The notes below the pieces were generated by a model. That model did no database searches, had not been told where the DNA came from, and saw nothing but the letters and a program-made list of their open reading frames with translations. A program made the translations under genes and the position numbers. A stretch of DNA of 64,000 nt from Laccaria trichodermophora (taxonomy: Eukaryota > Basidiomycota > Agaricomycetes > Agaricales > Hydnangiaceae): contig JACTVC010000025.1 of assembly GCA_018417955.1 (NCBI GenBank), positions 868,001 to 932,000 of the forward strand, written 5' to 3'. Shown here in pieces: positions 7,876 through 59,887 of this stretch; within the stretch, counting starts at the first letter, position 1; every line of letters begins with the position of its first letter.

Positions 7876-10800
7876 TCAATCTAATAATACCTCTGGATAG
7901 ACTACATTTTGTGTTACAGTTTGTTGTGAACCATCTTTAAAGAGAACTTTGATACGGTTGCTTGACGTGCAACGTGAAAGAGCCACATAAAGTTGTCCAT
8001 GTGTGAACACTGGGGTCCGAACATCCAGTCCTAAATGTTTCACTGACTGTCCCTGAGATTTGTTGATTGTCATGCAAAAGGCCAGGTGAACAGGAAATTG
8101 CCTTCTGCATAACTGGAATGGAAGTTCACCATTTGAAGGCTCAAATCTTATGCAGGGAATGAATGCCGTGTGTCCTGCAAATTCTCCTCCCAGAATGCGT
8201 ACTTCTAAAACTCGGGAAGAGGCACGGGTGAGGATTGCCCGGGTTCCATTGCATTGTCCATTTGCTGGATCAATATTTCGAAGGATCATTATTGGTGCAC
8301 CTATCTTGAGTTTCAATTTTGCTAGAGGCATTCCACTAAGGTTGATGGAATTGAGGTATTCTACTGGGTATTCAAATTCACCATCCACACCTCCTTCTCT
8401 CATAACAGAGTCTGCTGAGTGAAATGTTAATTCATTTCCACGCATGTGTTGAAGTATAGTTTCATTGAGATCATCAACATCATCATTCCGAGCTGTCAAA
8501 ATGGTCTGATCAAGTAAATACTGGTCATTTCTTGCATTTTGAGACAAAGTGGTTAGGCCAGGATAGAGAGCATTAATTAGAGATGCAACATCATTCCCAC
8601 ATTTCATTCTTTCTGGCAGAAGAGTAGAACCATCTGCATTTGTATGCTTCCCATGCCCAATTTCAATAAGCCATCGTGCAAAGTCTTTTTCTTCCTGTGA
8701 AGTATTTTCCAGATGCATATTCTCTTTCAAAGTCAGAATGTTGACAGATGTCCAGAGATGTGATCGCTGAAAACACTGGCTGACAATTTGTTCCCGTCCA
8801 CCTTTGACAACTACTGGAAGAATTTGTTGAAAGTCTCCTCCGAAAATAACAGTAACTCCACCAAATGGTACATCTGGTTGATCTCTAATATCTCTGAAGC
8901 TAATATCAACTGCTTCTTGACATAGTCTATCTTGCATTGGTACCTCATCCCAGATGATTGCATTGACAATTTTCATGAGATCTGCTAGATGTGTCCCTTT
9001 CTTAATTGAGCAACTTTTTCCATCATGGAGTTGAATTGGAATACGGAATGTGGAGTGGGCAGTTCTTCCTCCAATCAATAACAGGGAAGCAATGCCAGAG
9101 GATGCAACACAAAGAACTATCATTCCATTCCCTCGAAGATGGTAGCAAATGGTATTGTAAAGAAATGTTTTTCCTGTTCCTGCAGGACCATTCAAAAAGA
9201 ACATTTTTGGTGTGTTACTTTCTATTGCATTTATAATGGCATCATATGCTGCATGTTGCTCTGCATTGAGTTGACCAAGTCGTTGTTGAGCTTTATCTCT
9301 TTGGTCAGCCTGATCATATGCTAATTGCTCAGCAATTAGGCGATTTCCCTGAAGTTGCGCCCAGTTGCCAACTGGAAGTGGCATTGGTGGACACTGCTCT
9401 AATGACTTTCCTTTCTTTCGTAGATCCAAATCAATAAGGTATAGGCCATAGTCATAAACTTGTTCCTCTGTAAGATTTTCATGACCCATGTGCTGCAACT
9501 TTCTTTTGAGATCATCACAGATGTTTTCTTTAAATTGGTCCCATAATACCAATGGATTTGTTGGATTACAGTCATGAAGAATAGTTGTGAACAAATGCCT
9601 TAGTTGACCTCCTGTTTGCATTACTGCTGCTTCTTGAAGACATTGACTCCATTCATTATCATCTTCCAACAAACCTCTGGCCAAGCATGCTTCTTTAAAG
9701 GTTGGTACCTCAATACCATTGAATGTTCTCAAATTATGAAATGAAGTTGGTCCACGCACAACTGTCAAGAGAGTTCGCAGGTAGAAGCGTTCACCTGAAG
9801 ATGGATGTGCAAAATACATTCTTCCAATAGCAAACCCTCTTTGTCGCTCTTTCCAAATACGTTGCACTAAATTCCATGTATACTTTTGTGGAAATTCTTG
9901 ATAGAGTAAACCTCGTGAAAAATGCTGCCTTGGTCCAATAATGGGATTGGCATTGTCTGCTTCCTCCTCCTCAGCATTTTTCTTGAAGAATGCTGTCAGA
10001 GTAGTATTTTTAGCTTCTGCACGATTCAATACCATCACTGGCTGATCATTCTCATTGAAGATCACTGGTTGCTCATTTGGTAAGTGAACTGCCAGACGAA
10101 CAACATTAGGAGACTCCTCATGCATATTATATCTGAATAGGCGCCAGCTAGACTCAGATGCTGATATATATCTGGCATCTAAATACTGCTTTATTTCATC
10201 TTGATCACTTCCAAAAGCCATTGTAGTACGGTCATGCCCTTTGTAAATATACTTGTGAATATATTTTGTAGCTTTGATAGAAATACAGCACTCCAAATTT
10301 GCATGGCACTCCATCATCAAAATAATGTGTGGAGAGTGTGGTACAATCCATCGGTTGTCAATGATTGTCCCATCTGCCATTTCAAAAGTTCTGCCATTGT
10401 CTCTTCGTTGGTAAATAGTGTACCCATCCTGTGCCAGAATTGTCTCAGGTTGGAAAGTTTTTGGATAACCCTTGGAACACTTGTTATCCTTCATGCATGG
10501 TGCATTTGGGTTTGCCAAACCACATGGTTTATGAACCATCAAAGAAGTTACCAATTTGTGAAGTCGTGGATGTGTGACAGGATCAGGGATTTCAGCTCTA
10601 ATTACCTTGTCAATTGTTCCAGGATCCTGTGCATGTGCCTCAGGTGCCAGAAAAATGAGGATATGGATGTGTGGCAGGCCCCTCTTTTGAAACTCAATTG
10701 TATAGACATGCCCAACATGTCTTCCAAGGAACCCTTTCTTGATTTTTGAGAGAAGAATTTTGACTTTTTCACGGAAAACACAGGACACTAAATCTGGTCG

Positions 10801-12987
10801 ATCTTGAGGTGTCTGGCCAGGTAGCAGTTCATCCTTAATTTCATCCCAATATGGATTAGCAGTCACAGTCAGAAAAAAATCTGGCTTGGCAAAGAATCGG
10901 GCCAATGCTAATGAATCCTGATAAAGTTGAAACATATTTCTTGAACTTCCAATGTAAGAAGAAGGGAGAATAAATCTTTGCCCCAGTTCAGCAAGGTTTG
11001 CATCAGCATTTGCTACAACAGCATCTACAACCCCAGAATATATATCAACCCTCAGCTTATCCTGGTTATTTTTCAGAAACCAAAGACGTGACTGATCTGT
11101 TTGAGCAAAACCATCCACTATATATCTGCAAAATAGTGCCTTGGCTCTGAACAAATGATCTGATTCATTTGTTCTCTGATGAAGGCGATATGCATAGTAC
11201 TCCAGCTGTGACACTGTTTTTCTTGCCTTTCGCCTATGGTTGGGTGTATCATTATTCTCATTATTCTCAGGCTCTTCACCTGGATCCAGGTCCTCATCCT
11301 CATGGTCACCTGGAATGAAAGCTGCCTGACCATCAGCCAGAGTTAGAGGAATGTCTGGATGCCAGCCATGCTCCCCTTGAGGAAAAAGTAACACATAGTA
11401 GAGTGGCTGGAATGCAGGATGTATCTCTGTGATGCGCTTCAGAGGGCCTTGATGTGTGTGTAAAATAATATCTCTCTTGTCATTAGCCTGTGTGCCATCC
11501 CCTGGAATAACAACTGCAACCTCATTAGCAGTTGGAAGATTATATCTTCGCTGATCCTGCTCAGGGCTGAAGTGGAGGCGAACAGTAAGTTCAGGAATGT
11601 TGCTCTCCTGAATTTTTTGAAATGCAGTCTTATAGATTGCTACATATCGATTATTGCGATGAACAACATCTTGCAATGTTTGCATCACAGAAATCTTGAG
11701 GGGAGGTCGATTTGGAGCAGCTTGACCCTCTTGATTACCATTTGCATAGGCCATTCTAAGATCCAATTGCTCCTCATTTGTCTGAAAGTATACCTGGGCA
11801 TAAGTAGCTACTCTGCCTGGCTCAGGTAACAAAGATCCAGAGCGATGCCGAAGTTCTTCTTGAATAGTGAAGACATCAGGACCTCCACCATGTCTAATCC
11901 TTTTGTGAGACATTGAGACCATAGAGAAAGCATTATTATAGGAAGTAATATGACTCAGGAAATGCTTAGAGTCAGGGCTAGTCCCATCGTATAAATGCCA
12001 GAGCTCCAGTGGTGGCTTTTCTAGAGGTGGAATCTTTACTTTTCCATCTAGACAGCATGTGCCAAATACTGGCAGTGCTACAGTACTCTTTGATAATCTC
12101 TCACATTTCCAATGTAAAGCATCACACTTAGAGCATATTATATTCATTCTACCCAGTTTAAGCTTTTCACACTGAGCCTCAACCACAGGCAAGTAAGCAG
12201 GTGGGAGGATAACAGGAGCAGCAGCCATAGCAGCAGGAACAGCAGCAGCAGCAGCAGGAACAACAGCAGCAGCAGGAATAGCAGGGTGGTCAGCAGGTGG
12301 AACAGCAGCAACTAAAGGAGCAGGTACAGGAAGAGGATGATCAGGAAGAGGTGCAGGAGAAGGCTGCCTTCTTCTGCCTCTCCTTCCAGGTTGAGCAGGT
12401 TCATGAGCAGGTGCTCTCCCTCTCCCCCTCCTCCCTCTTGCTCCTACAGGCTGAGGAAGAGGTAGAGCTGCAGCCAATGCCTGTAAATGAGCAGGTAAGT
12501 GTGGATACTGAATACCATTTTGGTTAGGATGCCCCATATTCTGGAAAAAAGCTTGTTAGACAGATAGAAAATAGCCTAATGGTTTTTCTTACCACATCTA
12601 CCATAGCAGCAGGTGGAAATAGAGGTGGAGGGGCAGCAAGGGGGGCAGCATGAGCCTAAAAGATATATTAAATATTAGAAAAAGAGATATAACTCTGCAA
12701 CCTACCTGATTTTGCAAATTACCCACTTGTGCAGCCATCCCAGGAGTAAGGTGAAGAATTTGACCATTATATAGAACCTCAACAAATGGATCATCACCTA
12801 CAGGACCTTGAGGAATTTGAAGAGGAGCAACAGGGGGTGGAATAGGGAAAGGAAGAATAAAAGGTACACCACCAACAGCAGGATTTTGAGGTGTTCTCCT
12901 ATGCTCAGGACTTTCCAACATCCTTCCTTGACGCTCTCTTGCCCTCTCAATATTTCTATGCCTTTGTGGAGTATTAGGAGGAGAATC
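7876..12987 (-). CDS. Helitron replication initiator/helicase (RepHel)
   Basis: The main exon (12537-7876) encodes 1553 residues without a stop. Splice sites upstream support further exons at about 12595-12656 and 12707-12987, rich in Pro/Ala, so the true start lies at or beyond 12987 and is not resolved. After a low-complexity Ala/Pro segment comes a Cys cluster (CSKCDALHWKC, about residue 135). Then comes the HUH nuclease motif GLPHIHILIF (about 617) and the tyrosine pair TKYIHKYIYKG (about 760). The PIF1-like SF1 helicase follows: Walker A GPAGTGKT (about 1119), IIWDEVPM, GGDFQQILP and C-terminal LYVALSRCTS. This protein would nick and unwind DNA for rolling-circle transposition. It is open throughout, so activity is possible. 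Confidence 0.93.
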
Positions 12988-16891: not shown

Positions 16892-17379
16892 CTTGGGATG
16901 TCAAGGAGACGATATCATATATATTACCAGACTCGGATTGACGTGTCTCAGTACTGGTGTGTGAGGTGCGTGTGTGTGGGTTCATGTGAAAGGGATCGTA
17001 TTGCACAGGAGGAAGGAGTTGAATTTGACATAGCAAAATCCAACACGGAGTGGGGGTCGATGGCAAACTCAACCAACATTCCAGGGGTTCAAGGTTAGTT
17101 CACTGTAGCAGGAGTGGAAGGCACCCTCAAAGATGAAGTTGACGTCAAAGAGTCCACGACCTGTACCGTGCTAGTCTCGTTCCCATCCATTGTGGTGGTT
17201 GGCCCGACAGACTGTCAGAGATTCAAAATACACTGCAGAAAGACCACCAGAACGTCTGGTGCATTTGGTGCAGCAAACCTACCATTGAGTCACAGGTGTG
17301 ACTCAACAGTCACATCTGTCTTATCTACTCATGTAATCTACGCAAATCAATGTAACTCATCAACCCTTCCTGTCCCATC
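16892..17379. repeat. left inverted arm of the DUF6589/RecQ element
   Basis: Within this stretch, about 17180-17300 matches the reverse complement of about 26030-26155 (shared words: GACTGTC, GTCTGGTGCATTTGGT, CATTGAGTCACAG). I judge identity at roughly 70% by eye, with indels. The arms face each other outside the convergent DUF6589 and RecQ genes. No exact terminus or target duplication was found. The reading frames here look like by-products. Confidence 0.55.
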
Positions 17380-20060
17380 ATGTCCTGTGAACCAATGTTA
17401 AACTATGCCGATACCTTCCTTGATGAAGATGCTCGCCGCACTGCTGACAGCTCAGACTTCAAAGATGACTGGAACTCTGAAATGGACATTGATGATGTCA
17501 CGCCGCTCTGCGATCCTCGTCCTATTCAGGTTGAAGTGACTCAAAGTCTATGTGAGCAACTGGATGGACCCCTTCATGACAAAGTTACCAATGTTCTGTG
17601 ATTTATGGATGCACAAGGCCTCAATCTCACCATTTTTCTGGATGCTTTGAGCTGGGTGATCCTTACTGCAACTCACCTAAAATTAGGTATGAACGCACTG
17701 GTCTCCTTTTGAGTGAGGAACTACCCTCAATTCTTCAACAATGGTGGAAACCACCAAGGGTTCCTGGGTCGCCACATGCCCGATTCCAAGGTGCAACTGC
17801 AGCCTTGGATAATTTCACAACAAACTCTTTTTCTGCAATTGCAGAGAAAGAACTGGAGAATTTAACTCCTCTATTTTTTTCTCATACTGGTCAGGATGTT
17901 ACTGAAGATGAACTGACAAGCATCAAAATTCCTGATGCTGTCGAGTCAGTACAAACACTTGCACCAAGTCTATGGAAGCAATTCCATGGAATGGCTGTCA
18001 CTCGACGGCAGCAAGAGAAAAACACAAGGAAGAACCCCAATAAGGTCAGTCCTGTGAACAAATTTACTATTGCTCATTCTCACACTTGTTAGATAATATT
18101 CATGATATTTTCAATGCTGGCATTCACTTGCAGCTCATGCCATGGTCGGTTTCAAAAATTTCTATCCATATACTTTAAATTTTGAGGCCTTTCTGCAAAG
18201 GGGTTTGATACCCTTCATGCTCTTGCTCTTACTATGAGCCACAAATGGACTTGCAACGCAGTGGGAAAAATATTGGAGAAGGCAATGGATGAGATGAACT
18301 CTCTGAAGGATAAATATCCTTGGACATTGTCTTATGACAACATCAATATTCCATTTCATGTCTTTTCCCAGAGGCTTGATAACCAGTGGGAATTCGGGAT
18401 GGAACTGCAGCCACTGTTTATATAAAACATGATGCAACTCCTCTATCATCAACAGCCAATCACACGCTTCAGGAAACCCAAGCAGCTGGCATGCAAAACC
18501 CCTTGACAGCACTTGATATATTTGATCTTGCAGTCAAATCCACCCTGCACATATTGTTACACATAAGATATCAAGTCCTTCGATTTCTTCTCATAAATCC
18601 AGAGTTCAACCTTCCAAGCTACTCCTTCTCACAAAGTGAACTCCTCCATCCACCAAACCCACGCCAGCCACTTCCAACTGGATCAAAACATGTAATGCTT
18701 CAGTACCTCCTTGGAACCGTGAATATTCCTGAGGCGAGTTACGAGGACAACAGCCATTTGGTCAGAGAATGGGTGGCAACTCAAAGTTGAAGGAGCTGAA
18801 ATGCAGCAAAAACTTGGTATGGACCAATTAGTTGCATGGGCGGGTGATCAACTCACAGTTGATCGATTGCGGAATCTTTATAAATTTCGTGTGGAGGACC
18901 TCAATTCATACAATAGACTTGACTGGTTAATCCTGGTCAATGGATGGCTCCATATCATGATGGGTGCAGGGGGATCAATGCACAAGCAATACATGGGCAC
19001 ATCGAGGGGACAGGGAATCAGTCAAACCATTGACCTCCTCAACAAGAAGGGGCTTGGAAATGCTCAAATCAAGGGACCATTTCATCATGATCTTGATGAA
19101 CTTCTCTATGAAATGGCTGAGGTGCACATCCGAGAAGCATGGCTTGAAATTGGGAAAGTCGACTCCCTTGCACAACTTTGTCAAAAATCTGCTGAGGAAT
19201 TGGTGGGATTGGCAGAAATTATTGTTGGAAAGTATGCATCAACCGATGCATTGATTGAGCAAGATAGCAAACCTGACAACCAAAAGGACGCCGTATTATG
19301 GCAAACAATACTGTTTTGTCAAGACGTCCTTCATTACATCACCTTGGATCAGGCTATACAAAGTGGTGATGTGGGGTTAATGGAAGACTTTTTACCATAT
19401 CTGCTTTACAGGTTTCTTGGGAGTGGGAGTTCCAATTATGCGACGGAGATCTTGGAAATACTTCAAGCTTTTCACTGGGAATGGCCCTCTGAAGTAAAGT
19501 AAGCCATCTCTTGTCTCATTCATTCCAGCTACTCATCATTCTTCAGAGAATTTGTTTTAAAACACTGTTGGTTAGTAAACCATACAGGAAGACCTGGGGA
19601 TTTTCTTCCAATCGATAAAGCACAAGAGCATAATATCAAGGACATCAAGGTCACTCACCATTCTGAGGGCCCTAACGTCGATTGGGAATATCTCAAAAAA
19701 TTGCATCCAGCAATTCATATTATCTGTGCTGTTACATTGCATGCTGAGAAGGAATTCGCTACACTCATGCAAGGAAAGAAGCACACAGTACCACAAAGAG
19801 AACTCGATATCCGCACTCTCCAGAATTCATATCATGCATCCCATATCTTTCACTTCACTCCTGGAAGAGGAAAACCTTCTAATGCAGATTACGCAGCTGA
19901 TGTTTTCTCAGAGGGAGCTCATTCTCTGCACACAGGCAAGTTTCTCAAGAACTGGGTTGATGGACAGACATACAAACGAGCAACTACTCAAGAGCAATTT
20001 GGAGACGAGGGGTCTAGCAGTGATTCTAATAGTACTGGAGAAGACTTGATGTCAGAGTAA
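17380..20060 (+). pseudogene. DUF6589-type transposon protein
   Basis: Translation over three frames gives a nearly full-length member of the basidiomycete DUF6589 family. It begins FLDALSW/DPYCNSPKIRYERT (17620-17700) and passes through SYDNINIPFHVFSQRLDNQ (about 18330) and GMQNPLTALDIFDLAV. It continues with WAGDQLTVDRLRNL (about 18836), GPFHHDLDEL (about 19075) and HNIKDIKVTHHSEGP (19630). It ends in an acidic tail (SSSDSNSTGEDLMSE). Introns of 50-70 bp are seen near 18045 and 19500. Defects: TGA at 17599-17601 (CGA expected), a 1-nt shift near 17653, and shifts near 18395 and 18765. Its function is not established. Conserved Asp/His motifs (YDN, GDQLT, HHDLDE) suggest an RNase H-like or other nuclease, as inference only. 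It converges on the RecQ gene next door. Confidence 0.8.
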
Positions 20061-22019
20061 AATTTACAAAGAATGTAGCTACGGTTGTGGTTGTTGATAA
20101 TTAAGCCACCTCTGATTGGGAAGTGTTGAAGCAACAGGCAGGAAGTCGTCAGGATGTCGGTTGGGGCGATGGTAAGACGATGTGGGGGTATTGTAGTGGT
20201 AAGGATAGTACGTATTGGGGTATGTATGAGGCATGCGAGGCGGAGTCGTGCACGGAAGGTCAAAAGGATTGTAGTGCGGAAGTGGAAGATGGGTTGCAGT
20301 GGCATGGATTTGTGGATGTGGAAAATGGGTCATGGCAGCATGGGTTTGCGGATGTGGAAAATGGGTCACAGCGGCATGGGTTAGCAAGCTTGGGGTCCTG
20401 CTGCCTCCCAGTGTAAATGATGAGGATGGGGTCAGGGTAGACGGTGAGAATGACGTGAAGGGGTTTTGTGGGTATGGCCAAAGCTGAATGTTGGCATCAA
20501 TTGGGAATGCAACATACATATTTCATTGTAAATTCACGATGTACCAGTTCACCTGTGCTATTGAATGTCAATGAACTAGCAAGTGCATGCACTGGCGTCA
20601 ATGCACTCACCTGGCTTCATTCAACGTGGGTCTTCTGTGATCGTCTAGCTTCTTGCAACTGTGCCGTTTCCTGCTTCTTTGCCTCCCGACGCTCCAGCTT
20701 TTCACACTCTCTGTTCCCCTTATTGTCCGCATCCAGCTTTGCCAACAGATCGATCACCTCTTGTCCATGCCTCGCAGCTAAAAACCACGGGGGATTGAGC
20801 AGCGCCACCATGTCGTTGGGTGTCTTGATTCAAGCATTCAATGCGAGGGTGGTGAGCCTTGAATTCAGTAGGAGTGTGGCAGGCGTACATGGGCTGGATG
20901 GGTACTCCCGGTTTCATAGCTTCACGCACCATGTTTCAAGGGCCATTCGTACGTTTTTGAAGTGCTGTCCGCGTCGAGTAGCTGGTCCAGTGGGAGTTTC
21001 GTCACTGCGAGGCACCATTTAGCACTTGCCATTCGGATTTCTTGATTTTGAGGGGTACTGTGCATGCTTTATGGTCCGAGAACACCAATGGGAGACGTTG
21101 GGGTGCTGGGACGTGATAGTGGACTAGGTGGTGCAGAGGGTGTCATTGTCAACTTGGGAGAGGACAGGCCACCTTCTCGCCGACTGTTCTCACAGTTGTC
21201 ACACAAGGCCCCACAACACGCCGTGTTCGCGCCGTAATGCGTTGAATCTGAAAGTGTACATAGAGGTGAGCTATTGAAATGGTATGAAGTTTTTGCACTT
21301 ACCTGACATTGAGCTCGAGAGTGGTGGGTTGTTGAAATACACATCGCTTACCACATTTCGACACCCATCTGTCGAGATGTACTCACAAAGGTCTGGGTCG
21401 ACCTTTTTCCCCCAGTCTTTCCCATCGGTTGGTTGACCCTGTGTCCCATCAGAATGTCCTTCGTTGGTGTTGTCTGAATGGTCAGACTCGGAATCTGACA
21501 AGATTTCTGCTTGAGGCTTCCTGTGCTTCTTTTCAATGCTGCCTCCATCCTTCTTCTTCAGTCTCTTTTTTCTTTTGAACATCGACTTTTCAACAAGTAA
21601 TATCGCTCTCGCACAGATGTCTCTAGAGTGCCCACCTCGACTGGAACGTTGATTCCACACAGAAAGTGACATCGGAACCCCAAACTGGATAATAACTTAT
21701 CAGGAAAACGTCCAGTTGAACTTTGGGCAACTTTGGCAACTTTGCAAAGTTGTAAAGTTGCCAAAGTTGCCAAAGTTTGACAACTTTGTAAAGTAACGTA
21801 CAATAACTTTGAAAGTTATCGAGCAACTTTCAAAGTTGTCGAATCAACTTTCAAAGTTGTTCAAAAACTTTCCAAAGTTGGGAATCCATCTTTCAGTAGC
21901 ACTTTGGCACCTTTGCATGGGTACTTTGGTGAACTTATTCAGTGACTTTGGATCTCAAGAAGGAAGGCAGGGAACAGAAGAAAGGAATAGCATTGATGTT
22001 CAGTATCTAATACAGTAGA

Positions 22020-23054
22020 TGTGTTCTAGATAAAGCCCTAGCTATACACTAATCCAGAGGCTTCTCGCCTACATGTCTGCTATCAACCTGCCTGCTACCA
22101 CTGTCCTATGCCATTCACTCGGTTGTTTGGAGGAGCAACAAGATTGCACCTGGGCGTGGTCACAGTCGCGTGGGTGTGGTCGTGGTTGTGGACATGTGGG
22201 CGTGGACATATCGCGGTCGTGAACACATTGTGGTTGTATTCGTGGTCGTCGTGTCTTGATTGTGGTAGTGGTGGTCATGGAGTTCATTTCATGGTCTGGG
22301 GAGCAATGAGATTGTACATTAGTTCAGATAAAAATGAGGGTGAAACGGCACACACCAATGCCCCATCCTCCCACACTCACAATGAAAGGCAAGATCGGCG
22401 ATGAGAACTATATCAGAAGAAAAGCAAAATCAATAACCCAGCTGCCAGGGAGAAAGGTAAAAAAAACGTACATGGTGCATGGGTCCCACAGTTTCGTTCC
22501 CTCACTGCGTGTTTCATGAGAGTTAACTGCTTGCTGAAGTATAACGTAACCTGCAAGGAGGGGTGTTATATAGACCAATACAGAAAGAAAAGAGAGATTC
22601 ATACTGGCATATTGTCATTGAGGTGAGATCTGTTAGACTGTCCTACTTTAGAAAGGCCGCAATTGCAAGGAGAGTTGGAAGGGGGGGTAAATGAACACTT
22701 ACCAGATGTATTGTCATATGCAGCTAAGGTGCGGATTGCGCTTCAAATGGGTTGCAATCTGAAAGCAAGACCCAAAGTTTGTGGACAAGCATGGGGGTAG
22801 ATGGGGGCACAGTTGATGGAGGACCGTGAGGGTAAGACAGGTGGAGAAGAGGGAGTGGCAACCCACCATCCAATTGGCATCAATGAACGGGGGGAGCCAT
22901 GGGGGAGTTCGTGGGGAAGGGAGAAAGAGCGCAAAAATTTCTGTCCATGAACTTGAACCAAAGTCATGTGTACTTGTGATCACGTCATTCTCGTGAGGGC
23001 CAGACATTTCAACTTGGGCGTTCTCAGACGTATGTTACTTCGTTCGTCTATGAT
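22020..23054. other. interior of the 3-kb insertion, no gene recognised
   Basis: GT-rich around 22140-22280 (GTGGTCGTGG-like words); otherwise unremarkable. No open frame resembles a known protein. Confidence 0.4.
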
Positions 23055-23841
23055 AAGGTAGAGGACATCCACTTCCTTCCAACGTCATGTGCAGTTACTT
23101 TGCTGTGACATCCTCATCTAAATCGGGAACCACACCTAGAAAAAATAAGAGAAATGAGAATCAGATATTACTCACCCACAAATTGCAAAATCAAAGATAA
23201 TAGAATCGTTTAAAACTAGATTAAGCATTTATATACAAAATTAAAAGTTATAAGAGTAAGAACTAGGTCTAATCCCCCAAAAATACGAAATTATGTACAG
23301 AAACATGGGAGGAATTGATGAAATGGAAAGGCAAACAGTTGAGTAGATGCTCTGGATAGAGCAAATTTGATGGATCTTTGCTTTCTCCATGTCATCCATA
23401 AGTTTTTGTGAGAGAACATGGTGTCCTCAATATTTGCATGCTGCCCAAGCAGCTCGACGGCTGTTGAGGCCCTTTTCATAGGCATCTGGCATAAAGTGGT
23501 CAGCTCGCATGGCGAACCTCAAAAAATATCAGATTTGACATACTTGGACTGCATGCTTCGTTTTGGCATTCTAGTCACACTTTGAATAGGATTCCACAAG
23601 ACGCGCTGCAGAATATAGCTGTGTTGGCAGTATTTCTGGGCGATCACACTAAATATTCAAATTTCTCCTGATTTCTTTATTTCTACAACATTACAACTAC
23701 TTTTGAAACAATTCTATGGAAACCGATTGTCCTGAAAAGTTTTTGTTATTATTTGAGGAACTTTATTATAGAAAGGTAGACGCTTTTGGAATTGTCACAC
23801 TCAACACGTGATGTTGGAAGGAAGTGGATGTCCTTTACCTT
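23055..23841. repeat. 787-bp interval with 37-bp inverted repeats
   Basis: The arm AAGGTAGAGGACATCCACTT.. (23055-23091) recurs inverted at 23805-23841 with about three mismatches. It is probably a MITE nested in the larger insertion. No clear target duplication was identified. Confidence 0.6.
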
Positions 23842-24560
23842 ACATTGCTCAGCTCTCAGCACACTTTCAGTTACTCCTCTTCCGTTGTGTTTTCTTCCCC
23901 CTCCATCCTTCAGCAAATCTTTCTCCCGATGGCGAAGGCACGTGTTCATCTTCCTATGTGCTCTGGAGTTGGTCATTCTTTTCGCATTTCTGATATGCAG
24001 TAGCACCAAAGGAAAGCTAGGAACTTTGTACATATTCAGGTCTGACAGCTTTGCGCTGCCATTTATTGGCAATCTGTAGGTATTCAAAAGAACTCAAATT
24101 TCACCCCGCTGTGAGCCCAATCATCACCGAAACATTTGAGGATGATCAAATGTGAGGGGCCACACCTCTGCCACAGACTTTCGAAGCGAAACTCACACCC
24201 ACAACGAAAGCGAGGAGGGAGAAGAAGATGGGCACTAGGAAGCTGAAGCGAAAAACAAACTAGAGTCAGTGGGTGTTAGGTGTTATCAGCCAAGCTGTCT
24301 TGACTGATGTCTATGTCTTACGCTGACAGGTAATTGGTTAAGGGGTCACCCAGGTCACGCGAAATCACCACAGGGCATCATGGGCGACATCGGGTAGGCA
24401 ATGGCGGAGGATGGCCGTCAGAGGGAAAGACTGATGGAAGGGGAGATGGAGATGGGCGTAGCAAGGCAGAGGACTCTCATTTCTTCAGTGAAGCCTGTAA
24501 GCATGATAACCAACTTACAAAAACCACCCATCTAATGATGACTTTTGTTTTCAAGTTTTC
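23842..24560. other. interior of the 3-kb insertion, no gene recognised
   Basis: A plus-strand frame at 23786-24079 has a hydrophobic stretch (FIFLCALELVILFAF) but overlaps the repeat arm and has no supporting context. It is treated as chance. Confidence 0.35.
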
Positions 24561-25838
24561 AGTTAGTGGTGCAACTCCTTGGAAAGAGACAAATCAAAGT
24601 AAAAGTTGCGTTCTGAAAGTGAAAGTTGTCAATAAAAGTTGAAATAGTTGTCCTACTCAAAGTAAAGTTACCCAAAGTTCCCACATCTGGAGTGAAAGTT
24701 GTCAAAGTACAACTGGACGTTTTGCTGATGAGCTCGATATCAGGAATATCTGTGCCCTTCATATAGTTAGTAAGTGAACAGACTAGAATTAATGCCACTT
24801 ACCATCCCTGCCACTTCCATTGCAATCAGAATTTGAACCCTTCGTTTCTGGAAGTCTTTCATGATGCTTTGCTTTGCTTTTCTTGTGCAGTGAGTGTGCA
24901 GGTAATCAATGTGCTTGTAAAACCGAGGGCCATAACGTTTCTGCAGATCTTGACAAATAATTTGTGTGTTGTTTACAGAATTGGTGAAAATAATCGTGTG
25001 AGGGAGATCTTTTGGCATCGTAATCTTGTTGGGATCAGGCAACAGTGCATGAATGGCAGACAAGTCCTTGGAACCATCCATATGATGAACTGCATATGAA
25101 ATATTCGACCAACGGTTCCCCAAGTTCAAGAAAAATGAATCCTCATGATCGACATTGATTTGAGAACAGACCTCTGAAAGGGCAAGGGGTGGGAGGGTCA
25201 CTGACGTGAGAAGAACAGGGATGTCTGAGGGCATAAAAGCCCTTAGTTTGCTGACTTCAGCATAGGCAGGTCAGAAATCCCCTCCCCACTGGGATATACA
25301 GTGAGCCTCATCAATAATAATTGCAGCCATACTTTCAGTAGTTTTTTTGGAGCTCAACCACTTCCGAAATTCAGGGTGCTTGAGGCACATCTCGGGGGAT
25401 GTGAAAATTGCTTGATATTCATGTTCTGAAAGGCTCTAGGCAAAGAATGGATAAATGGTGTTAGTTGTCTGTCAATAAAATGAGATATTGTGCACCTGGA
25501 GGAGAGACTGTGACCATGAGTCGCCATTGACTGCAACAGAGGGAATTTTCATTTTCTTAAACCTCTGAACCTAAATTCAATCATCCAAAATTTAGCATGA
25601 TAAATTTAAAAAAAAGCTGGGCTCTTACCTGATCCGTTTGAAGAACTTTCAATGGTGAGATGATGAGAACCATCTTGTCAGGAAGGTGCAGAAGTGGAAG
25701 CATGAACGGAATAGTTTTCCCTGAGCCTGTACCTGCAATGACAACACTGTCTAGACCTAGCAGAAGTGCCTCTGCTACATCTAGCTGCCATTCATAAGGG
25801 GCAGAACCAAAGCACTCTGCAAAAAGTGCTGCCAGCAC

Positions 25839-26437
25839 ACATCATGTGGCCCCACTATTGTATTTTCTCTGCTTTTCTGCAGCGGCACACGCTTCTTGGA
25901 GCCACTTTTAGGATGTGATTCAGGCCACCTCATGTCAGGTGACGTCAGATCCTGATTCCGTAGGCATTTGGATGTGTGTAGCCTTGTGTGCGTAGTATGA
26001 CACAGCCACAGAAAAAATTCTATTCATGTTACAGAATGTCACGCTGTGACTCAATGGGTGGTTTTGCCTACCAAATGCACCAGACATTATAGAGTGTTCT
26101 TTGTTGTGTGTTTTCACACTCCGACAGTCCGCTGGGCCGTACACTCTATAACAGATGGGGATAAGACTATACCATGCAGGATACACTCCATCTGGCAATG
26201 GCCTGATGGATGAACATGATCAGCATTCCTCTCGTTCGCATCTGCAGTTCAATATTGGGTTTGGAGAGCGCAACAAAATGGTGATCCCCAATTCCAGAAT
26301 GTTATGTGGGTATTACATGGAGTACCCCCCCAGGGACATAAACAACTTTGAGCAATTTGGCTCCATGCATAGAAGATGACTGTCACTTACAGACGACTTA
26401 TACATCTTGGGATTGATTCCTTGGAGGCATAGGCAAG
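25839..26437. repeat. right inverted arm of the DUF6589/RecQ element
   Basis: Upstream (5') of the minus-strand RecQ gene; 26030-26155 is the inverted counterpart of about 17180-17300. A minus-strand frame reads ICYRVYGPADCRSVK..SGAFGRQNHPLSHS, and the left arm in plus orientation reads similarly (VVVGPTDCQRFK..SGAFGAANLPLSHR). The arms may therefore once have been coding or share structure. The remainder has no gene. Confidence 0.5.
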
Positions 26438-26757: not shown

Positions 26758-29700
26758 ATGACTGTAGGCAACCCTGTCCTTGATGACCCTTCGCCCATCA
26801 CTGCTTTGACCCTGTCGAGTTCCTTGCCTGTCACTGCCCTTGCCAGCAATGTATCTCATCCCTCTATAACCATTCAGAGTGTGAAGGAGTTGAGCTGGGG
26901 GACTTTTGATGTTCTCGACAAATCCTCAAATAACTACACGACATAGAGCCAACACGTTGTTCGCATTTTGTGTCTTTCTTCTGGCTTGGACCTCTATTTG
27001 AATGAATCATTTCTCCCACCCGACTCATGCCTCAAACCTTGTGCTAACCGCAACTGGTTTATCAATGACGCCGCTATTCAGGTGTTCCTTCTCATGAAGT
27101 GTGCCCATTCGGAACTATCTTTCATTGAGAAATGCATGACTTCCATTGATATCTGGTTGACTCTGAAGAAACACCATGTTCACCAGGGACCAATGTCCCA
27201 AGTTACTCTCATCCAAGAAGCTCTTTCCCTTCATTATTCATTGTCTATGCCTTCCTCTGAAACGACACTTTGATACTGTGAACTTAATCAATGCATTTGG
27301 GATATGGGCACTCCAACCCCTGAGGGTTTTCTTTGCATTATGATGTTACTTGGCCTCTCTTCTGATAGCTCTCTCTCTGCCGTTCGAGACTCTATTATAT
27401 CTGGTCTTTCGTCCTCTACTTCCGAATGCGCATATACTTTGGTGGATATCATTGCCTGCCTCGATTTTGATCAACAGGCCCACTCTTTGGCCATTATGCA
27501 AACAGTACCTGTACCTGCTGAGGCTCACATCAGCCGATGCTCGAACTCTAACTCCTTGCAAATGATTTGTTCAAATTGCAAGAAACCCTGACACACTTCT
27601 GAATTTTGCATTCAACCCGGTGGTGGCATGGCAGGCAAAACTATTGCTGAAGCTCAACAGGCATGCGATGCGAAACACAGCAAGAAATCTAAAGTCAAAT
27701 CCAAGGAAACTGTGAAAGGAATGGCTGGCAGTATTATTCAATCCAGACACCAAGCTTACATCGTCGACGCTGACGGCAAAGCTCACGAAATTGTTGGTTC
27801 TTCCACTTCGAGTACTGCTACGTCTACGTCGTCCGAATCTGCTCATTTCCTTCAAACAGATGACCTCAATTCAATTGATCCCCTCGTCCTGGACTCTTTA
27901 TGTGCTGCAGATGTTGACGAATATGCACATATAGCCAAGTATTCTTGGCTCACAACTCAAGATTCGCTTCATGCTTCCGTTGATTGGCATGAGAGGAGGA
28001 GAAATCTTGACGAATTAGATCTCACAGCCATCACTGCAGCACCACTTTCCACTGCTGCTCATCAAACTTCCCTTTCCTTGGACTCTTCCCCTTTCTTGCT
28101 AGATAGTGCCTGCACCACCCACATCTCACCAGATCGTTCAGACTTCCTGATGCTACACCCCATTGCAGACCGAACCATTACTGGTGTTGGTGGTTCTTCC
28201 ATCAAGGCCCTAAGAATCGGATCTGTCAAACTCGTTGTCAGCAAGGGATCTTCCTTGTTACTCGAAACCGTATTATTCATCCCTTCTTCCACCATTCGAC
28301 TCATCTCAATCGCTTGCATTAATGAATTGCTACAATGTTCTGTTACCTTCAAATCTTCTACCATTATGCTCAAGCAACGCTCTGGTTCGCTCTTCGCAAC
28401 TGGCACACGCCTTCCTACCCGAAAACTCTATTGTCTCAACTGTACCCGCCTCTCAACCAAGCATGCATTCCATATGGCTGATCTTGACACTTGGCACTGA
28501 CGGCTTGGACATGCATCTAACCAATGTGTTCTTGACTTAGCCACCAAGCAATTAGCCCAAGGTATGCTCATCAATCTTTCTCGATCCCCTCCCAAATGTG
28601 ACAGTTGTATCTGCGGTAAACAGGGTCGAACCCCAGTACCAAAGACATGTCAGGGGGAGAGATCGATTCGAAAATTGGGAGTGATATTTGTGGACTTGAC
28701 AGGACCTGAGGCTGTGAAATCGGCGAGCAGTAATTCCTATGTGATGAACATTGTCGACGATTATTCTAGTCACCCTTGGACCTTTTGTCTTAAGTTAAAA
28801 TCTGATGTGCTATCCACCCTCCAAGTTTGGGTGCATCGAGCTGAAGCAGAAAGCGGGGAACATATAGGCATCATCCATGTGGATGGTGGTGAATTGAATT
28901 CTGATGCGATGAATGCATGGTGCGATGCTAACAGTTACAGACTACAGTTCACTGCACCTTACACATCTGCCCACAATGGCCGTGCCAAATGCATGTACCT
29001 TACTATCATGAATAGGATGCATGCTATGCACGCGTCCACACCTAATGTTCCTCCCAATTGTTGGGATGAATTTGTGATGACAGCAGGCTACTTGTCCACA
29101 CATATGCCCACTTGCACACTCCAGAAAACACCTTATGAGGCTTGGCATGGGAGTAAACCAGACTTATCACATTTACGAGAAATAGGTTCCTGAGCTTTCG
29201 CCCTTATCCTTAAACACAACCCCAAAATTTATGAATGGTCCATTGAATGTGTCCTTGTTGGATATTCTCCAAACTCAAAGGCTTACCGTCTCTACCATCC
29301 CTCTACACATCGACTCTTTGAGTCCTTCCATGTCAAATTTATCAAGTGAAAAGATAATGTTTCCCAACCTCTTTTCCCAGGCTGTATTATTGACATTCCC
29401 ATTGCAGTTGACCCTGATAATACCACACTGGTTCCTGTGGTTGAATCGTTGTCACACAACAACACCTCCATCCACGATGAGGAGGAGCTTGTCACTAGAC
29501 CAGCTCCTGTGGTTCATTCATTTCCACACAAGAACACCCCTATCCAAGACGAGGAGGAGACTGTCATGCCTGATTCTGGCCAAGTCTGGACTCATAATCT
29601 GGGAGCACCTGTTCCTTTACTTCCAAACTCTACTGACACTCCTACTGCAGTAGATACAATTGTGCCTGTCCCTGTACTGGACATTGACACTGTTCCCCAG

Positions 29701-29850
29701 TGCTCCAATCAGCCCCTGGTTCTGACTCCCAAGGTTGCTGAAACTCTGGGTATCCGACATGTGCCACATGTCGCCCAGGCAGTTAACAGCGCACTCAGGC
29801 AAAATTCGAGAGACATCAACTTGTCCTTGACCAACGCACCTCCCTTACTA
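26758..29850 (+). pseudogene. copia gag, protease and integrase (decayed)
   Basis: The gag-like frame starts MTVGNPVLDDPSP and is broken by stops at 26944 and 27271. A CCHC zinc knuckle (CSNCKKP-HTSEFC, about 27563-27605) is interrupted by a stop. The protease active site is LLDSACTTH (about 28097). The integrase zinc region H-(stop)-RLGHAS..CDSCICG is at 28490-28620. The core has DLTGPEAV and VDGGELNSD, but the usual AERMN-type motif reads NGRAKCM, so the third catalytic Glu is gone. Further stops occur at 28498, 29191 and 29347. Several are TGA where CGA/Arg is expected. Not functional. Confidence 0.9.
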
Positions 29851-29900
29851 ACAAGGCTGTTCTGCTTCCTACCATTGCTAACGCCATTCCAGATGACACC

Positions 29901-31595
29901 TTGCCACCTCCACTTGTTCAACTTTCTGATCCTGAAGTCGACCTTGTTAATCTTTGCAAGGCTTTTGTGGCTGAATTAGCTTCCCCTCTCATCAACCTGC
30001 ACAATCCTGATGAACCTACCTTCTGTGAGGCTATGGCTTCTCCTGACGCTGCCAAGTGGACCTTTGGTATCCAGGATGAATTACACAGCCTTAAAGAGAT
30101 GGGTGTTTATAAACTTGTACCTCATTCTGATGTCTCTGCAGGTCATAAGATCCTAACCGGCAAATGGGTTCTCAACCTCAAACGCGATGAGCTCAGTGAT
30201 CCTAAACAACACAAGGCATGGTATGTCCTCAGAGGTTACGAACAAATTTTTGGTCAAGACTATGTTGATACCACCTCACCTACCGCCCACATGGAATCCG
30301 TCTGCTTGCTCCTCAACATCACTGCTGCCAAGGATTGGGACCTTCAGCAAATCGATGTCAAGACCACTTTTCTTTATGGCCTTTTGCCTGCTGACGAAGT
30401 CCAGTATATGGAACAGCCTCTCTCTTTTGAGGAGCCTGGAAAAGAAGACTGGGTTTGGTGCTTACAGTGTGGCTTATATGGAATGAAGCAAAGCAGTCAC
30501 ATCTGGAACAAGACTATGCACAAGGCTATGTTAGATTGGGGCTTTAAACGACTCCATGCTGACCCTTGTGTTTGTTATAGGGTCACTCAACTGGGGACGG
30601 TCTTGTCTGCTGTCCATGTTGATGATTTCCTGATTGTGTCTAGTTCACCAGAAGCATCCCAATCATTCAAGGAGGAGCTCAAGTCCCTCTGGACCATCTC
30701 CAACCTCAGTGAAGCACATTTTTGTGTGGGGATTGTGATTTCTCATGACAGGCCTAATTGTCTCATTTCTATTTCTCAAACTGCACTTATTGACCATGTT
30801 ATTCAACAGTTTGGCCAGGCCGACCCTGACCCCATTTCCACCCCAATGGATCCATCGGTCACCAAGAGCCTTACTCACCCTTCCCCTTCTGATCCACCTC
30901 TTTCTGACTCTGACGTCTGCGACCTGGCACGCATCCCTTATCAGTCACTGGTTGGCTCCCTTATGTACCTGGCTGTTGGTACTCGACCTGATATCTCCTT
31001 TGCTGTTGCTTGTCTCTGCCAATTTCTCGATTGCTATCGCCATGTACACTGGAATGCAGCCATATGTGTTGTTCGTTATCTTAAAAGTACACACTTGCTC
31101 ACTCTTACACTAGGTGGTGATCTAGAACTGGACCTGGTTGGCTTCTCTGATTCCTCCCATGTGGATTGTCTGGACACTGCTTGTTCGACCATGGGCTACT
31201 GCTTCTCTGTTGGCGGTGCTGTCTTCACTTGGTCATCTCGCTGCCAGACAACCATTTCCAACTCTTCCTGCGAAGCTGAATATATCGCCCTCAGCAAGGC
31301 CAGCCATGAAGCCCTTTGGTTGCAACAGTTTCTATGTGAGATTCATTTCCTCAAACCCAATCCTACTGTACTCCTCTGTGACAACAACAGCGCCAAGGCC
31401 CTTTCATCCGATCCTACACACCACTCCCAGAGCAAGCACATTGATGTCCGTCATCATTTTGTTCGCGAGCACATTGAAGAAGGTTCTCTCACCATTTGGC
31501 GCGTCCCTGGTCATGTCAACGTCACCGACATTTTCACAAAAGCCTTACCACGTCCCGACTTCACTTGTTTACAGCCCTTCCTTGGACTACGGTGA
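29901..31595 (+). CDS. copia reverse transcriptase-RNase H part, open
   Basis: A 564-residue open frame, in a different frame from the integrase segment, so it is no longer part of one polyprotein. The copia RT block is visible: AKWTFGIQDELHSLKEMGVYKLV, DLQQIDVKTTFLYG, and the catalytic HVDDFLIV (usually YVDD) at about 30615. The tether MYLAVGTRPDISFA follows, then RNase H (GFSDSSHVDCLD, SSCEAEYIALS, SKHIDVRHHFVREH, TDIFTKALPR). Start at 29901 is simply the first Met of the frame. The domain survives while gag and integrase are broken. Confidence 0.88.
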   Translation: MPPPLVQLSDPEVDLVNLCKAFVAELASPLINLHNPDEPTFCEAMASPDAAKWTFGIQDELHSLKEMGVYKLVPHSDVSAGHKILTGKWVLNLKRDELSDPKQHKAWYVLRGYEQIFGQDYVDTTSPTAHMESVCLLLNITAAKDWDLQQIDVKTTFLYGLLPADEVQYMEQPLSFEEPGKEDWVWCLQCGLYGMKQSSHIWNKTMHKAMLDWGFKRLHADPCVCYRVTQLGTVLSAVHVDDFLIVSSSPEASQSFKEELKSLWTISNLSEAHFCVGIVISHDRPNCLISISQTALIDHVIQQFGQADPDPISTPMDPSVTKSLTHPSPSDPPLSDSDVCDLARIPYQSLVGSLMYLAVGTRPDISFAVACLCQFLDCYRHVHWNAAICVVRYLKSTHLLTLTLGGDLELDLVGFSDSSHVDCLDTACSTMGYCFSVGGAVFTWSSRCQTTISNSSCEAEYIALSKASHEALWLQQFLCEIHFLKPNPTVLLCDNNSAKALSSDPTHHSQSKHIDVRHHFVREHIEEGSLTIWRVPGHVNVTDIFTKALPRPDFTCLQPFLGLR

Positions 31596-43579: not shown

Positions 43580-43782
43580 TAGTGTGAAGCTAGTCCTGTT
43601 CTCTTCGCGCCCCAAAAACCGCGTCAGGAAATGTTTATGTAATCTTCGGACTTTGAAACCCTTGCGCGTCAACAACGCGTCAACAACTGCGTGCTCCCTC
43701 CTGGCTCCTTACGTGTTTACAGCACTATTGTCCTCCCTTCCTATCCCAATTCTATTCTTTTTTCTTCGACACATCAATTACT

Positions 43783-44840
43783 ATGGAAAACAATGTCCCA
43801 ACCATCCGAACTTACAAGAAAACGCCCCTGGTTGAGGTGCCAGAAGCCCCACAATATATCACACGTTTTCTGCCCCCTACCTCGAATTCTGTCCTCTTTT
43901 CACATCCGAGTGAGCCAGGGAAACCGTCATCTCCCGAGCTGTTGTTGCCTCTTCTCAGGTCTCCTTTCAATCAGCTTCGTTGTCCAAGCGGATCCTCAAG
44001 TCAACCACGACTGATAGAAGCTCCACAAGACGACGCGCAAAAGCTCGCATCGAAATTTGATCGGATGGAGCAGTTGCTTAAGGACTCTGGCTTTGACTCT
44101 CTCGGCGAATTTCTGAAGATCTTGTTCTACAACCCGAGCCGCGTCTCTGGACAGCAAGGGCGGAACAAGGTCAAATTTTCGGACATCATAACGCTTGTCT
44201 ATAAGCACAAGCACAGCGCGCCTTCGCCGAGCTCACCACATGCTTCAGAACATCATGCTCCGTTCTCACCATCAGTCTCTCCTGTCGACTTCTTTTACGC
44301 GCATCCTTCTTTATTCACGTGGGCGACGAATCTCGTCGCTAATCATGTTCATCGTGAGATCTCCGAACTTGCGGATAAGGATGACGATGTCCATCTCTGA
44401 GCTTCGACGAATGGACGGTGTCCAACGGATAGCGTCAATCTCGTCACCTGGGAAGCTTTGGGAAGGTTTAGTATTGCCGCCCTCATGGAGAAATACAAAA
44501 GTCATGCACCTGTTGCTTGGCATCTCACGGAATGCATGGCTGCCTCTCACAAGAATGGCGTTGTGGTGGTCAAGAAGCAACGGCCACATCCAATTGTATC
44601 TATCTTAATGGAGTTTAATATCACGACCTCATTTACCTTTTCCTGCAGATTCAAGTGGGCGCTATCAGCTCCTTTTTACTTGCGCACAACCACTTTGCTA
44701 CCGGAGACCTTGCGATGGCCTTGGGCGTATGGCACTTTGCGGTTAAATCCCATATCGACGTCAAACGTGTCTACAGCCGGTTTGGAAATATTGTAAGCGA
44801 CTCGACAGTCCGTAAAGCTCTCGACACCATGACTGGTTCC
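43783..44840 (+). pseudogene. N-terminal part of a DUF6589-type protein
   Basis: Starts MENNVPTIRTYKKTP. A predicted helical segment RMEQLLKDSGFDSLGEF is followed by a Ser/Pro-rich stretch, LFTWATNLVANHVH.., a stop TGA at 44398-44400, and ASTNGRCPTDSVNLVTWEALG.. in the same frame. An intron near 44600-44650 joins to QVGAISSFLLAHNHFATGDL, and then comes VKRVYSRFGNIVSDSTVRKAL. This order matches the N-terminal half that precedes the DUF6589 core in basidiomycete proteins as I know them. Sequence of this family ends abruptly after DTMT, where the opposing RecQ fragment begins. The stop sits where Arg (CGA) would read. Confidence 0.65.
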
Positions 44841-45109
44841 AGAATTGGCCTTGAACGGGTGGGCAGATTGGCGGGATAGGACTCGGGGTGCTGGTTGTAC
44901 TCTGAAAGCAAGAGACATGGAATAGAAAAGGCTGCTGACTTCCCATCTCCGGTTGCAGTGCAACAGAGAATATCTTGTCCATCAAGGATAGCTGAAACGA
45001 GGCTGAGTTGAACCATATGCAGCCCGCTCGTCCACAGTGGTATAATCTTTTTGACAATGGTGTTGATGGTTTGTTGCCCTAGAGGGTCCTGCCAGCGGGG
45101 TTTGGCCAT
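44841..45109 (-). pseudogene. N-terminal fragment of a RecQ-like helicase
   Basis: Starts MAKPRWQDPLGQQTINTI (45109) and continues through GLHMVQLSLVSAILDGQD to motif I CCTATGDGKSAAF, then SYPANLPTRSRP, where homology stops at the junction with the DUF6589 fragment. The TATGDGKS Walker A is the form seen in transposon-linked RecQ proteins of mushrooms. Only the Q-motif and Walker A region remains, so no activity is possible. Confidence 0.75.
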
Positions 45110-45313
45110 ACTTTCGTGTTCATAACACGTTCGAAGTAATTCTAAAAGCCAAAAAGTCAATGTTCAGGATGCATAAAGGGAAGAATGTACTCAAAACGCA
45201 TCAGGGCATGAAGGGAGCAGACCAATATCAACGCGACGAGGTCGGACCGTGATTTCAAAGTCCGAAGATTACATAAACATTTCCTGACACGGTTTTTGGG
45301 GCGCGACAAACAA

Positions 45314-45365
45314 CAGACTTCATATATCGTGAACCAAGGTACGACTTCACATATATCGAAGTCTG
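45314..45365. repeat. 52-bp near-perfect palindrome
   Basis: Arms CAGACTTCATATATCGTGAA and TTCACATATATCGAAGTCTG are inverted copies with one small shift around a 12-bp loop. It sits just outside the right 54-bp repeat and could be a tiny foldback insertion or part of the element's terminus. Confidence 0.65.
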
Positions 45366-45388
45366 TCTAGGAGAGACTAGTGTGAAGC

Positions 45389-56521: not shown

Positions 56522-57091
56522 TGTAAGGAATGACCAAGGGACAACAGGGAACAACAAGTGGTTTTCGAATGGAATTTGGGGTGTCCTCAAGGTGTCCTTC
56601 CTTACTTCGGCCAGCACTGAGGACCTATGAGCTCATAAACATCTGTTATTCAGAATTCTCTGAAATCCTGACAGACTTCGCCAGGTTTTGCCAATCCTTT
56701 TCGGATTCGCCAGCTGGCGAAGGCTGGCAAACGATTGCCAACGACACTTCAGCATATGGTATTTAAGTGAGTGCAGCTATAAAGTCGTCAGAACAAAAGA
56801 AGAAGTACTGCTATCACTACTGGTGAGCAGGCGATATTCAGGCAGACCTCTCCGCAAAAATCAGAATTTTGCAAATTTCATCGTACAAGTGACCAAATCT
56901 TTGAATGGAAGTTGAGTGGAAAATAGGCTTCTCAAAGGTCGAGGACAAGACGGCGGCGTGAAAGAACTGATTGAAAGCTTTGACTTCAACTCAAAGTCCT
57001 TCACGCCTATTTTCGCCGCAACTGTAACGCCACACCCTCGAAAAGCGAAAACGTCGAGACCATTACTTATACATCCTACACAAGTTTCTGT
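56522..57091. other. no gene; possible hAT-end remnant
   Basis: 56670-56760 contains TTCGCCAG/CTGGCGAA words and ends AACGATTGCCAACGACACT, resembling the TCGCCA-rich end of the 4091-6918 hAT element. It may be a decayed end fragment. Otherwise nothing is recognised. Confidence 0.35.
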
Positions 57092-58514
57092 TCAAGTACC
57101 ACATTTCACTCGCTTCCCCGAAGGCAAAACCTCCGCCACAAGACACACATTTCCATAACTGTGCCCAAGCGACGCCTCAGCCAGATAAGGGGACTCGAGG
57201 CTGTTAAGAGTCGTTTGCAGCGTAACCCACAACACCTTCTTAGCTTGAATAACCTGACCGTCATAACACCCATCCGAATATTCCCCAACCTCATCGGCAT
57301 CACAAATCACGATCCCATGTCCAGCTTTAGGCAACGACACCCGAAACGGGTCCTCTGTGTCCCAATTAGGAATTTGGTCCTCGTCGTCTAACATGATGTG
57401 GGGCCGCTTGAGAGGTGGTAGGGGTTTGTCCCTGAAAGAGTGGCCTGGGGGGTAATCGTCTTGGTTGTCTTCGTAGATGATTTTGATTTGGGGAATGAGG
57501 TTGAGTTGGGAGAGGACGAGTTTGAGGAGGGCGTCGGTTCCTTTGAGGGAGTTGATTAGACCTCGGATGGACCCTCGTGCGATGGGATACATGAATTCGA
57601 GGCCGAAGCCGAGGTACCCGCTGTTTGGTAATAGGTCGCGGTGGTTTAGGAGGGCAGATAGGGATGTACGGAGTAAGAGTTCGTCTTCGGTCATCCAGGA
57701 ATGGTAGGAGGAATTCGGAGTGGTGTCGTCGAAATAGAGGTTGTATGTTAGGGTGACGCGGTAGCCAGAGGTGACCATGGAGACTTCGTGTTCGACGTCG
57801 CTGTAGAATGCGACGTAAGCGATTGAGGGGACGGGTTGCGTGGAAGTGATGGAGGCGGAGTCGAACATCCATTCTTGGCCCTTATGACGGAGTTGGAGGG
57901 CCCCGCCTTCGTGCCGAGTGGGGAAAACGACGACGAGTGAGCCGAACATGTTCTCGCTGCGCGGAGTATCCTTGTGTGCTTTGAAAAAAGACCCGGGATC
58001 TGCATATATGTGTCGTAAATTCTCTCCTTCATCAACAATTTATGAATCGCACTCACCATAGACGTTCAACTTGTACATCTCCGGCCTAATTTTCTTGTTC
58101 TCGTTTCCCTGCATGAGCATTGAGCGAATGCTTTCCAAGATTCCGTTATTGACAACGTCAAGGCGCATCGCGAAATTGGCGTTATCCATCTTCCAAGCTT
58201 TTCGATAGGTTTCATCTAACACGTCTTTGTCGTCGACGCCGAAAGGGGCCGGCTGACACGCTTCTAGCAATACTTGAAGGCTTGCGTCATCGGCGTTCGC
58301 GAAGTCTATGCAATGTGCTCTGTTTCGGACGAAAAGAAAATCAGAACGGCAACGCGATGACAGGAATGGCGAAAGGGGTTTACCCTGTACCGCCTCCTGT
58401 ACGGAAGAAGAAGAGACTAGTGTTGTCGGTGAGGGGATGGGTACCAGTGACGAAGGGCTGCTTCTTGGAGATGGCATTGCGTACAGCAGCAAGGTCGTGG
58501 TCGAGTGTTGACAT
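57092..58514 (-). CDS. 2OG-Fe(II) oxygenase (prolyl 4-hydroxylase-like)
   Basis: Exons 58514-58384, 58319-58057 and 57999-57092 join in frame (introns GTAAAC..AAACAG and GTGAGT..ATGCAG) to give about 433 residues. The start MSTLDHDLAAVRNAI is the first Met of a clean exon. The double-stranded beta-helix core begins around residue 130: YDPGSFFKAHKDTPR supplies the iron-binding His and Asp (HKD). MFGSLVVVFPTRHEGGAL follows, then DVEHEV with the distal His and SGYRVTLTYNLYF with the Arg that binds 2-oxoglutarate. The C-terminal half (to KCGT) is the extra region common in fungal members. The substrate is unknown; cytoplasm or nucleus is likely since no signal peptide is seen. Intact, between the two NB-ARC genes. 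Confidence 0.85.
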
Positions 58515-58885
58515 GATTCGAGGTGGGGGGCAATTGAGCAATTAAAGTGAGGGGTCCTTTTGGTTTGAGTCGACCAAGACCACCACACTCCTTTACTGAG
58601 TCATTTGTCAGGCGGCGGGGGCAGGATACCTAAAACGACCTCAGACATCTCTCAGACTCCGTCGGGCCGCTGTAAATTCGTTGTCAGAATGAAAAGAGAT
58701 GCGGCTGTGACTGCTTGTTTATTCTGATTTATATCCGTTTTTGAAAACGCCTCGAGTCGTCGCTGCGACCAAGCAGCGACGAGTGGCGATGAAGCCCGAC
58801 GGTAAGTATTGCACGACTTGCTCAGATAGATCAGAGTGAGTCGCCATGAAGGTGATTCCAGAGATATTGCATACAGCGCCCAACC
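58515..58885 (+). promoter_or_regulatory. duplicated upstream region of NB-ARC gene 2
   Basis: From about 58655 the sequence matches 50905-51150 upstream of gene 1 (shared: GATGCGGCTGTGACTGCTTG, CGAGTCGTCGCTGCGAC). It ends at 58885 where a transposon interrupts it and resumes at 59764. 58515-58655 is the 5' flank of the oxygenase gene. Confidence 0.6.
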
Positions 58886-59754: not shown

Positions 59755-59887
59755 CGCCCAACCGGGACAGGTGACAATGTTGGGCTGTGCTGAATGAGCG
59801 CTTGGTGTGCCCCGGCAAAATGCGAACGATACATCATGATCAAGGTTCTCGCTTCTTTCCTTTTCCCCCATCTGCGACACTTCCAAC

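Follow-up and report, generated by a model that had tools for sequence, protein, structure and literature searches.

Genes and ends of the element

The window analysed here, a stretch of 64,000 nucleotides of Laccaria trichodermophora (G000:C18:868001-932000; genome searched, 59.0 Mb in 77 contigs), contains an element in which a DUF6589 gene on the plus strand and a RecQ-like helicase gene on the minus strand converge. The DUF6589 profile (PF20231) matches at 18494-18787 and 18777-19784 (G000:C18:886494-887784), and open pieces of the RecQ-like gene run from 25841 to 24770, with a further match at 21696-21250. Both genes lie inside an inverted pair of 95 nt (17201-17295 and 26044-26138) that is 73% complementary (69/95 bases). 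When the left arm was compared with every 95-base stretch of 17301-63994, 69 bases matched at 26044 and 42 at the runner-up place. The element starts with TAGTCTCG, finishes with AAGACTA and is flanked by an 8-bp direct repeat with one mismatch (TACCGTGC / TACCATGC). The initial annotation had described a convergent pair within diverged inverted repeats, and the genes, their convergence and the repeats stand. Both genes, however, carry stops and frame breaks, and the RecQ gene is interrupted by about 3 kb of DNA bounded by inverted ends of 30 bp, which is probably a younger transposon nested in the gene and not part of the element. A further inverted pair lies within this nested stretch and spans 23054-23842. 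Since its genes are broken and interrupted in this way, the window copy is dead. Its RecQ gene has its closest relative at G000:C10:869956-870590 (77-85%), on a contig that has no DUF6589 match.

A second element in the window is flanked by exact 9-bp repeats (GTGTGAAGC). Alignment of its DNA to a relative of 6,222 bp on contig C21 revealed a fusion of the first 1.28 kb and the last 0.5 kb of such an element, and it is therefore a non-autonomous internal-deletion derivative of the 6.2-kb C21 type. N-terminal parts of both genes are retained (54-74% and 70% identity to C21). This locus had been annotated as carrying the same two genes up to 45377; the identities were read correctly, but the DUF6589 domain itself has been deleted and the element extends to 45379. 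A genome search with its left end returned 40 scored matches from 104 candidates. The features of both elements are collected in Table 1.

Table 1. Features of the two elements in the window
Feature	Position	Strand	Remark
Left target-site duplication TACCGTGC	17164..17171	.	one mismatch to right copy
Left terminal inverted repeat, begins TAGTCTCG	17172..17300	+	also present on short paired copies at other genomic places
Decayed DUF6589 (predicted DDE transposase) gene	17356..20057	+	several open pieces, stops between
Decayed RecQ-like helicase gene, transposon-interrupted	20610..25841	-	helicase matches 25841-24770 and 21696-21250; low end approximate
Probable younger transposon in RecQ gene	21696..24732	.	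30-bp inverted ends
Right terminal inverted repeat, ends ...AAGACTA	26044..26169	-	inverted-repeat comparison
Right target-site duplication TACCATGC	26170..26177	.	one mismatch to left copy
Left target-site duplication GTGTGAAGC	43582..43590	.	exact 9-bp repeat
Second element, ends TAGTCC... / ...GAGACTA	43591..45379	+	derivative of the 6.2-kb element type at G000:C21
N-terminal remnant of DUF6589-family protein, domain deleted	43777..44852	+	comparison with C21
N-terminal remnant of RecQ-like helicase	44843..45136	-	comparison with C21
Right target-site duplication GTGTGAAGC	45380..45388	.	exact 9-bp repeat

Linkage of the two genes in the genome

The PF20231 profile gave 61 matches in the genome, which fall into 37 loci, and 24 of these have a summed score of at least 100 bits. 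With two RecQ queries, a RecQ-like match was found within 10 kb of 13 of the 24 loci, where chance would give 0.22 for 27 places. A third query added C21, C1, C30 and C25, bringing the number of linked loci to 17 of 24 (C25, counted here, is a deletion derivative with a RecQ fragment only), and the chance expectation stays below one linked locus even after all 73 third-query matches are added to the 27. The two genes are thus linked far beyond chance. Clustering of transposons in general was controlled with Helitron domains (98 matches), which lie within 10 kb of a single DUF6589 locus, the window's own, and with Kyakuja-Dileera-Zisupton (KDZ) matches, among those listed of which none lies that close to any of the 24. 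The four extra linked loci, both controls and the target duplications of C20 and C4 described below were counted by hand from the search output.

The 17 linked pairs comprise eight convergent, nine divergent and no same-strand arrangements, so that convergence, initially taken as the only layout, is one of two. In C20, C21, C29, C4 and C34a both genes are enclosed by the same termini and target duplications. The proposal that DUF6589 and RecQ form one mobile unit is upheld by this linkage, together with the related termini and the target duplications. Open RecQ genes that share 96-97% identity with the C21 gene also occur at G000:C10:128660-129595 and C23:3642720-3643655, with a matching terminal repeat 0.4 and 1.3 kb off and no DUF6589 match on those contigs; these seem to be derivatives that retained the helicase and lost the transposase. 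A third RecQ-like fragment of the window (58912-59124, minus strand) has one in-frame stop, and no inverted repeats of at least 25 nt were found around it in 57000-61000.

Termini and target-site duplications

Exact target duplications surround nine of the 14 gene-carrying or derivative elements examined (C20, with TATGGACTC, C21, C25, the second window element, C29, C4, C34a, C22 and C34b), and in all nine they measure 9 bp. The elements on C29 and C4 are 99% identical and lie between different duplications, therefore their movement was probably recent. The termini are related across elements and start with TAG (TAGTCTCG, TAGTCC, TAGACTCG). In convergent elements the inverted repeats range from 81 bp (C21) to 245 bp (C20, 95.5% identical). 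The ends of divergent elements read TAGACTCG (in C34b, TAGACTCA) / CGAGCCTA, and a palindrome can be seen in subterminal position on the right; the two whole ones tested (C29, C34a) revealed no long terminal inverted repeat. A palindrome of about 20 bp is also present close to the left end of the whole divergent elements L047/L011 (C29) and L048/L017 (C34).

Small extra DUF6589 pieces upstream and internal repeats in C22 and C33 raised the question of whether the divergent layout is an artefact of convergent elements in tandem. This was rejected because exact 9-bp duplications surround single RecQ-DUF6589 units in C29, C4, C34a, C22 and C34b.

Ends of the window type also bound short paired copies, and exact duplications flank six of the eight that were retrieved (8 bp in five, 9 bp in one); for the other two, L035 and L036, a duplication was sought and none was found. 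Contig C19 carries an 11.5-kb pair of window-type repeats with a damaged right end. The left terminal repeat of L021 (G000:C45) seems to harbour a repeat of 688 bp whose inverted ends measure 30 bp; an oppositely oriented copy of it with 97% identity lies just past the right end.

Relatives in other fungi

The neighbourhood of the two genes is also found in other fungi. The comparison set consisted of 111 RecQ relatives and the best 120 of 145 DUF6589 relatives, and contigs of identical size were taken as the same contig. Among the matches listed, 45 RecQ and 45 DUF6589 relatives share contigs in this sense. Sharing was seen for 16/26 RecQ and 16/28 DUF6589 relatives on contigs of 4-15 kb, and for 0/21 and 0/15, respectively, on contigs below 4 kb. 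For instance, the two genes of Arthromyces matolae bear neighbouring tags (H0H93_015956 and _015957). Within-family distances of DUF6589 and RecQ proteins are correlated (r 0.90, 43 pairs; at most 0.30 in 2000 permutations), a value to which shared species history contributes.

Hundreds of DUF6589 proteins of mushrooms were met in the searches, mostly called hypothetical, and one from this genome is 96% identical to LACBIDRAFT_300405. A search with a distant-subfamily protein listed 120 of 286 matches, all unnamed proteins and apparently from mushroom-forming fungi only; it therefore neither supports nor excludes animal relatives.

DUF6589 and the RecQ-like helicase

Pfam gives the function of DUF6589 as unknown. 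Predicted models suggest an RNase H-like transposase fold of the Hermes/P/RAG kind, and D326, D489 and E742 (P0003 numbering) are predicted to form its metal-binding set; this D-D-E set is conserved, in agreement with the putative transposase of nuclease-like fold proposed at the outset. Among the motifs singled out there, the alignment shows YDN and GDQL each with a conserved D, but HHDLDE is not conserved and was ruled out as a catalytic motif. In the predicted structure, DUF6589 shares with Hermes (hAT), the P element and RAG1/Transib an RNase H fold in which the last catalytic helix is preceded by a long helical stretch, whereas no hAT or P family of Pfam matches the seven frames scanned. 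Hermes, P and RAG1/Transib elements are not known to carry a helicase gene.

The helicase is of RecQ type. Among solved structures, RECQL5 is the best match of P0127 (6.5e-15), followed by RECQL4 and BLM; its matches to the RecQ family models of NCBIfam are below their cut-offs. Two frames of C20 exceed the Pfam cut-off, one for Helicase_C and one for DEAD.

No mention of DUF6589 was found in the literature searched, and PF20231 matched only an unrelated physics paper; the available parts of PMC12210899, PMC9970103 and PMC10989895 add nothing on the family. A link between DUF6589 and Academ was not found in print by these searches.

Placement among DNA transposons

AcademH, a lineage of the Academ transposons, was reportedly described by Kojima (2020, Mob DNA 11:15). 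The observed pairing, termini and target duplications describe a DNA transposon with two genes, DUF6589 as its predicted DDE transposase and a helicase of RecQ type, which most likely belongs to this lineage. The helicase lies beside the putative transposase at the linked loci, and at those with mapped ends the two share one pair of termini, and the DDE core with RNase H fold is predicted by the models. In the parts of the reports that are available, AcademH has target duplications of 9 or 10 bp (PMC10045372) and hosts in Basidiomycota, Ascomycota and Mucoromycota (PMC10799480), Academ is listed with a RecQ helicase (PMC3627910), and fungal Academ copies, which contain PF00270 and recQ_fam, frequently bear host-gene annotations (PMC6416283). 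Thus transposase plus helicase, basidiomycete hosts and 9-bp duplications are shared with AcademH, while the 8-bp duplications of some short relatives differ and the two gene layouts may do so; the same available parts of PMC3627910 and PMC6416283 do not name DUF6589. In addition, putative non-autonomous Academ elements are reported to be widespread in a mushroom (PMC8290104). The helicase-carrying design, which the initial annotation had regarded as undescribed, is consequently already known as AcademH (PMC3627910, PMC6416283, PMC10045372). In a 2012 study of Laccaria bicolor transposons (PMC3411680), the words helicase and RecQ are absent from the text available.

Several points weigh against this placement. 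It was made from gene content and duplication length. Foldseek returned no match for the DUF6589 model at E 0.001 or better (best 0.048), so that the structural case depends on a second structure aligner, and D738 and some other acidic positions are roughly as conserved as the proposed D-D-E set. An exact duplication is lacking in five of the 14 elements (imperfect 8 bp in the window element; none found in C45, C33, C7 and C27, whose left ends were not reached or not recognised). A need of the helicase for movement is hypothetical. The 8-bp duplications of five short relatives and of the window element fall outside the 9-10 bp of AcademH (PMC10045372), and, with a family to which neither Pfam nor the literature found assigns a function, they could point to a superfamily of its own that acquired its RecQ helicase independently. 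This is unlikely, as RecQ helicase, fungal hosts and 9-bp duplications all agree with the Academ and AcademH reports available in part. An elaboration of it is equally doubtful: DUF6589 would be a fungal DDE lineage of the Hermes/P/RAG fold, separate from Academ, with RecQ obligate for transposition and the genes inverted inside out. Its tail-to-tail form would have long inverted repeats and its head-to-head form short terminal repeats and subterminal hairpins, with related termini and 9-bp duplications kept, for which we see a similarly small chance.

Adjacency by chance to a passenger or subtelomeric helicase is the least credible reading. At seven of the 24 DUF6589 loci a RecQ-like neighbour was not found within 10 kb (C11 one, C13 one, C5 five), which counts against AcademH membership as well, and subtelomeric RecQ families do exist in fungi (PMC4522978, in its available part). 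Against such adjacency stand the 17 linked loci, with just two of the possible orientations, the five elements that hold both genes between the same termini and duplications, and the co-variation of the two proteins across species. As to a subtelomeric position, pairs such as C20:235340 lie far from the ends of their contig (919,028 bases), although contig ends may not be telomeres. Kolobok elements insert at TTAA, and duplications here are of 8-9 bp and none is TTAA; membership in KolobokH was rejected on these grounds and is very improbable, even though KolobokH shares a DDE transposase and a RecQ helicase and is found in fungi (PMC9587614, in the part available). Other classes were judged by searching seven frames from two elements against Pfam, with E values up to 1 admitted. 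The search gave DUF6589 and helicase domains without the KDZ family PF18758, and no hAT family, so that likeness to hAT is confined to the predicted fold; both classes were rejected. Helitrons, which have Helitron_like_N and a Pif1 helicase and are not known to make a target duplication, were rejected as well, as the helicase is of RecQ type, no PF14214 was found in the seven frames and target duplications are present.

Other features of the window

An open Helitron protein of 1553 aa (Helitron_like_N and PIF1 helicase) is encoded at 7876-12537 on the minus strand. Retrotransposon pieces in separate frames, which we take to be Copia-like from RVT_2, lie at 27628-31595 on the plus strand (Pol_BBD, RVT_2 and an integrase core just under the cut-off).

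Proposed mechanism and significance

For the putative AcademH elements, cut-and-paste movement may be envisaged. DUF6589 would cut both element ends and join them to the target, a staggered target cut would give rise to duplications of 9 bp (or 8 bp), while RecQ may unwind the ends or clear the gapped intermediate. DUF6589, a large Pfam family of unknown function, hereby gains a likely job as a transposase, and some RecQ-like helicase annotations in mushrooms are explained as transposon genes. Paired families with two layouts and clean ends make the need of a cut-and-paste element for a helicase testable.
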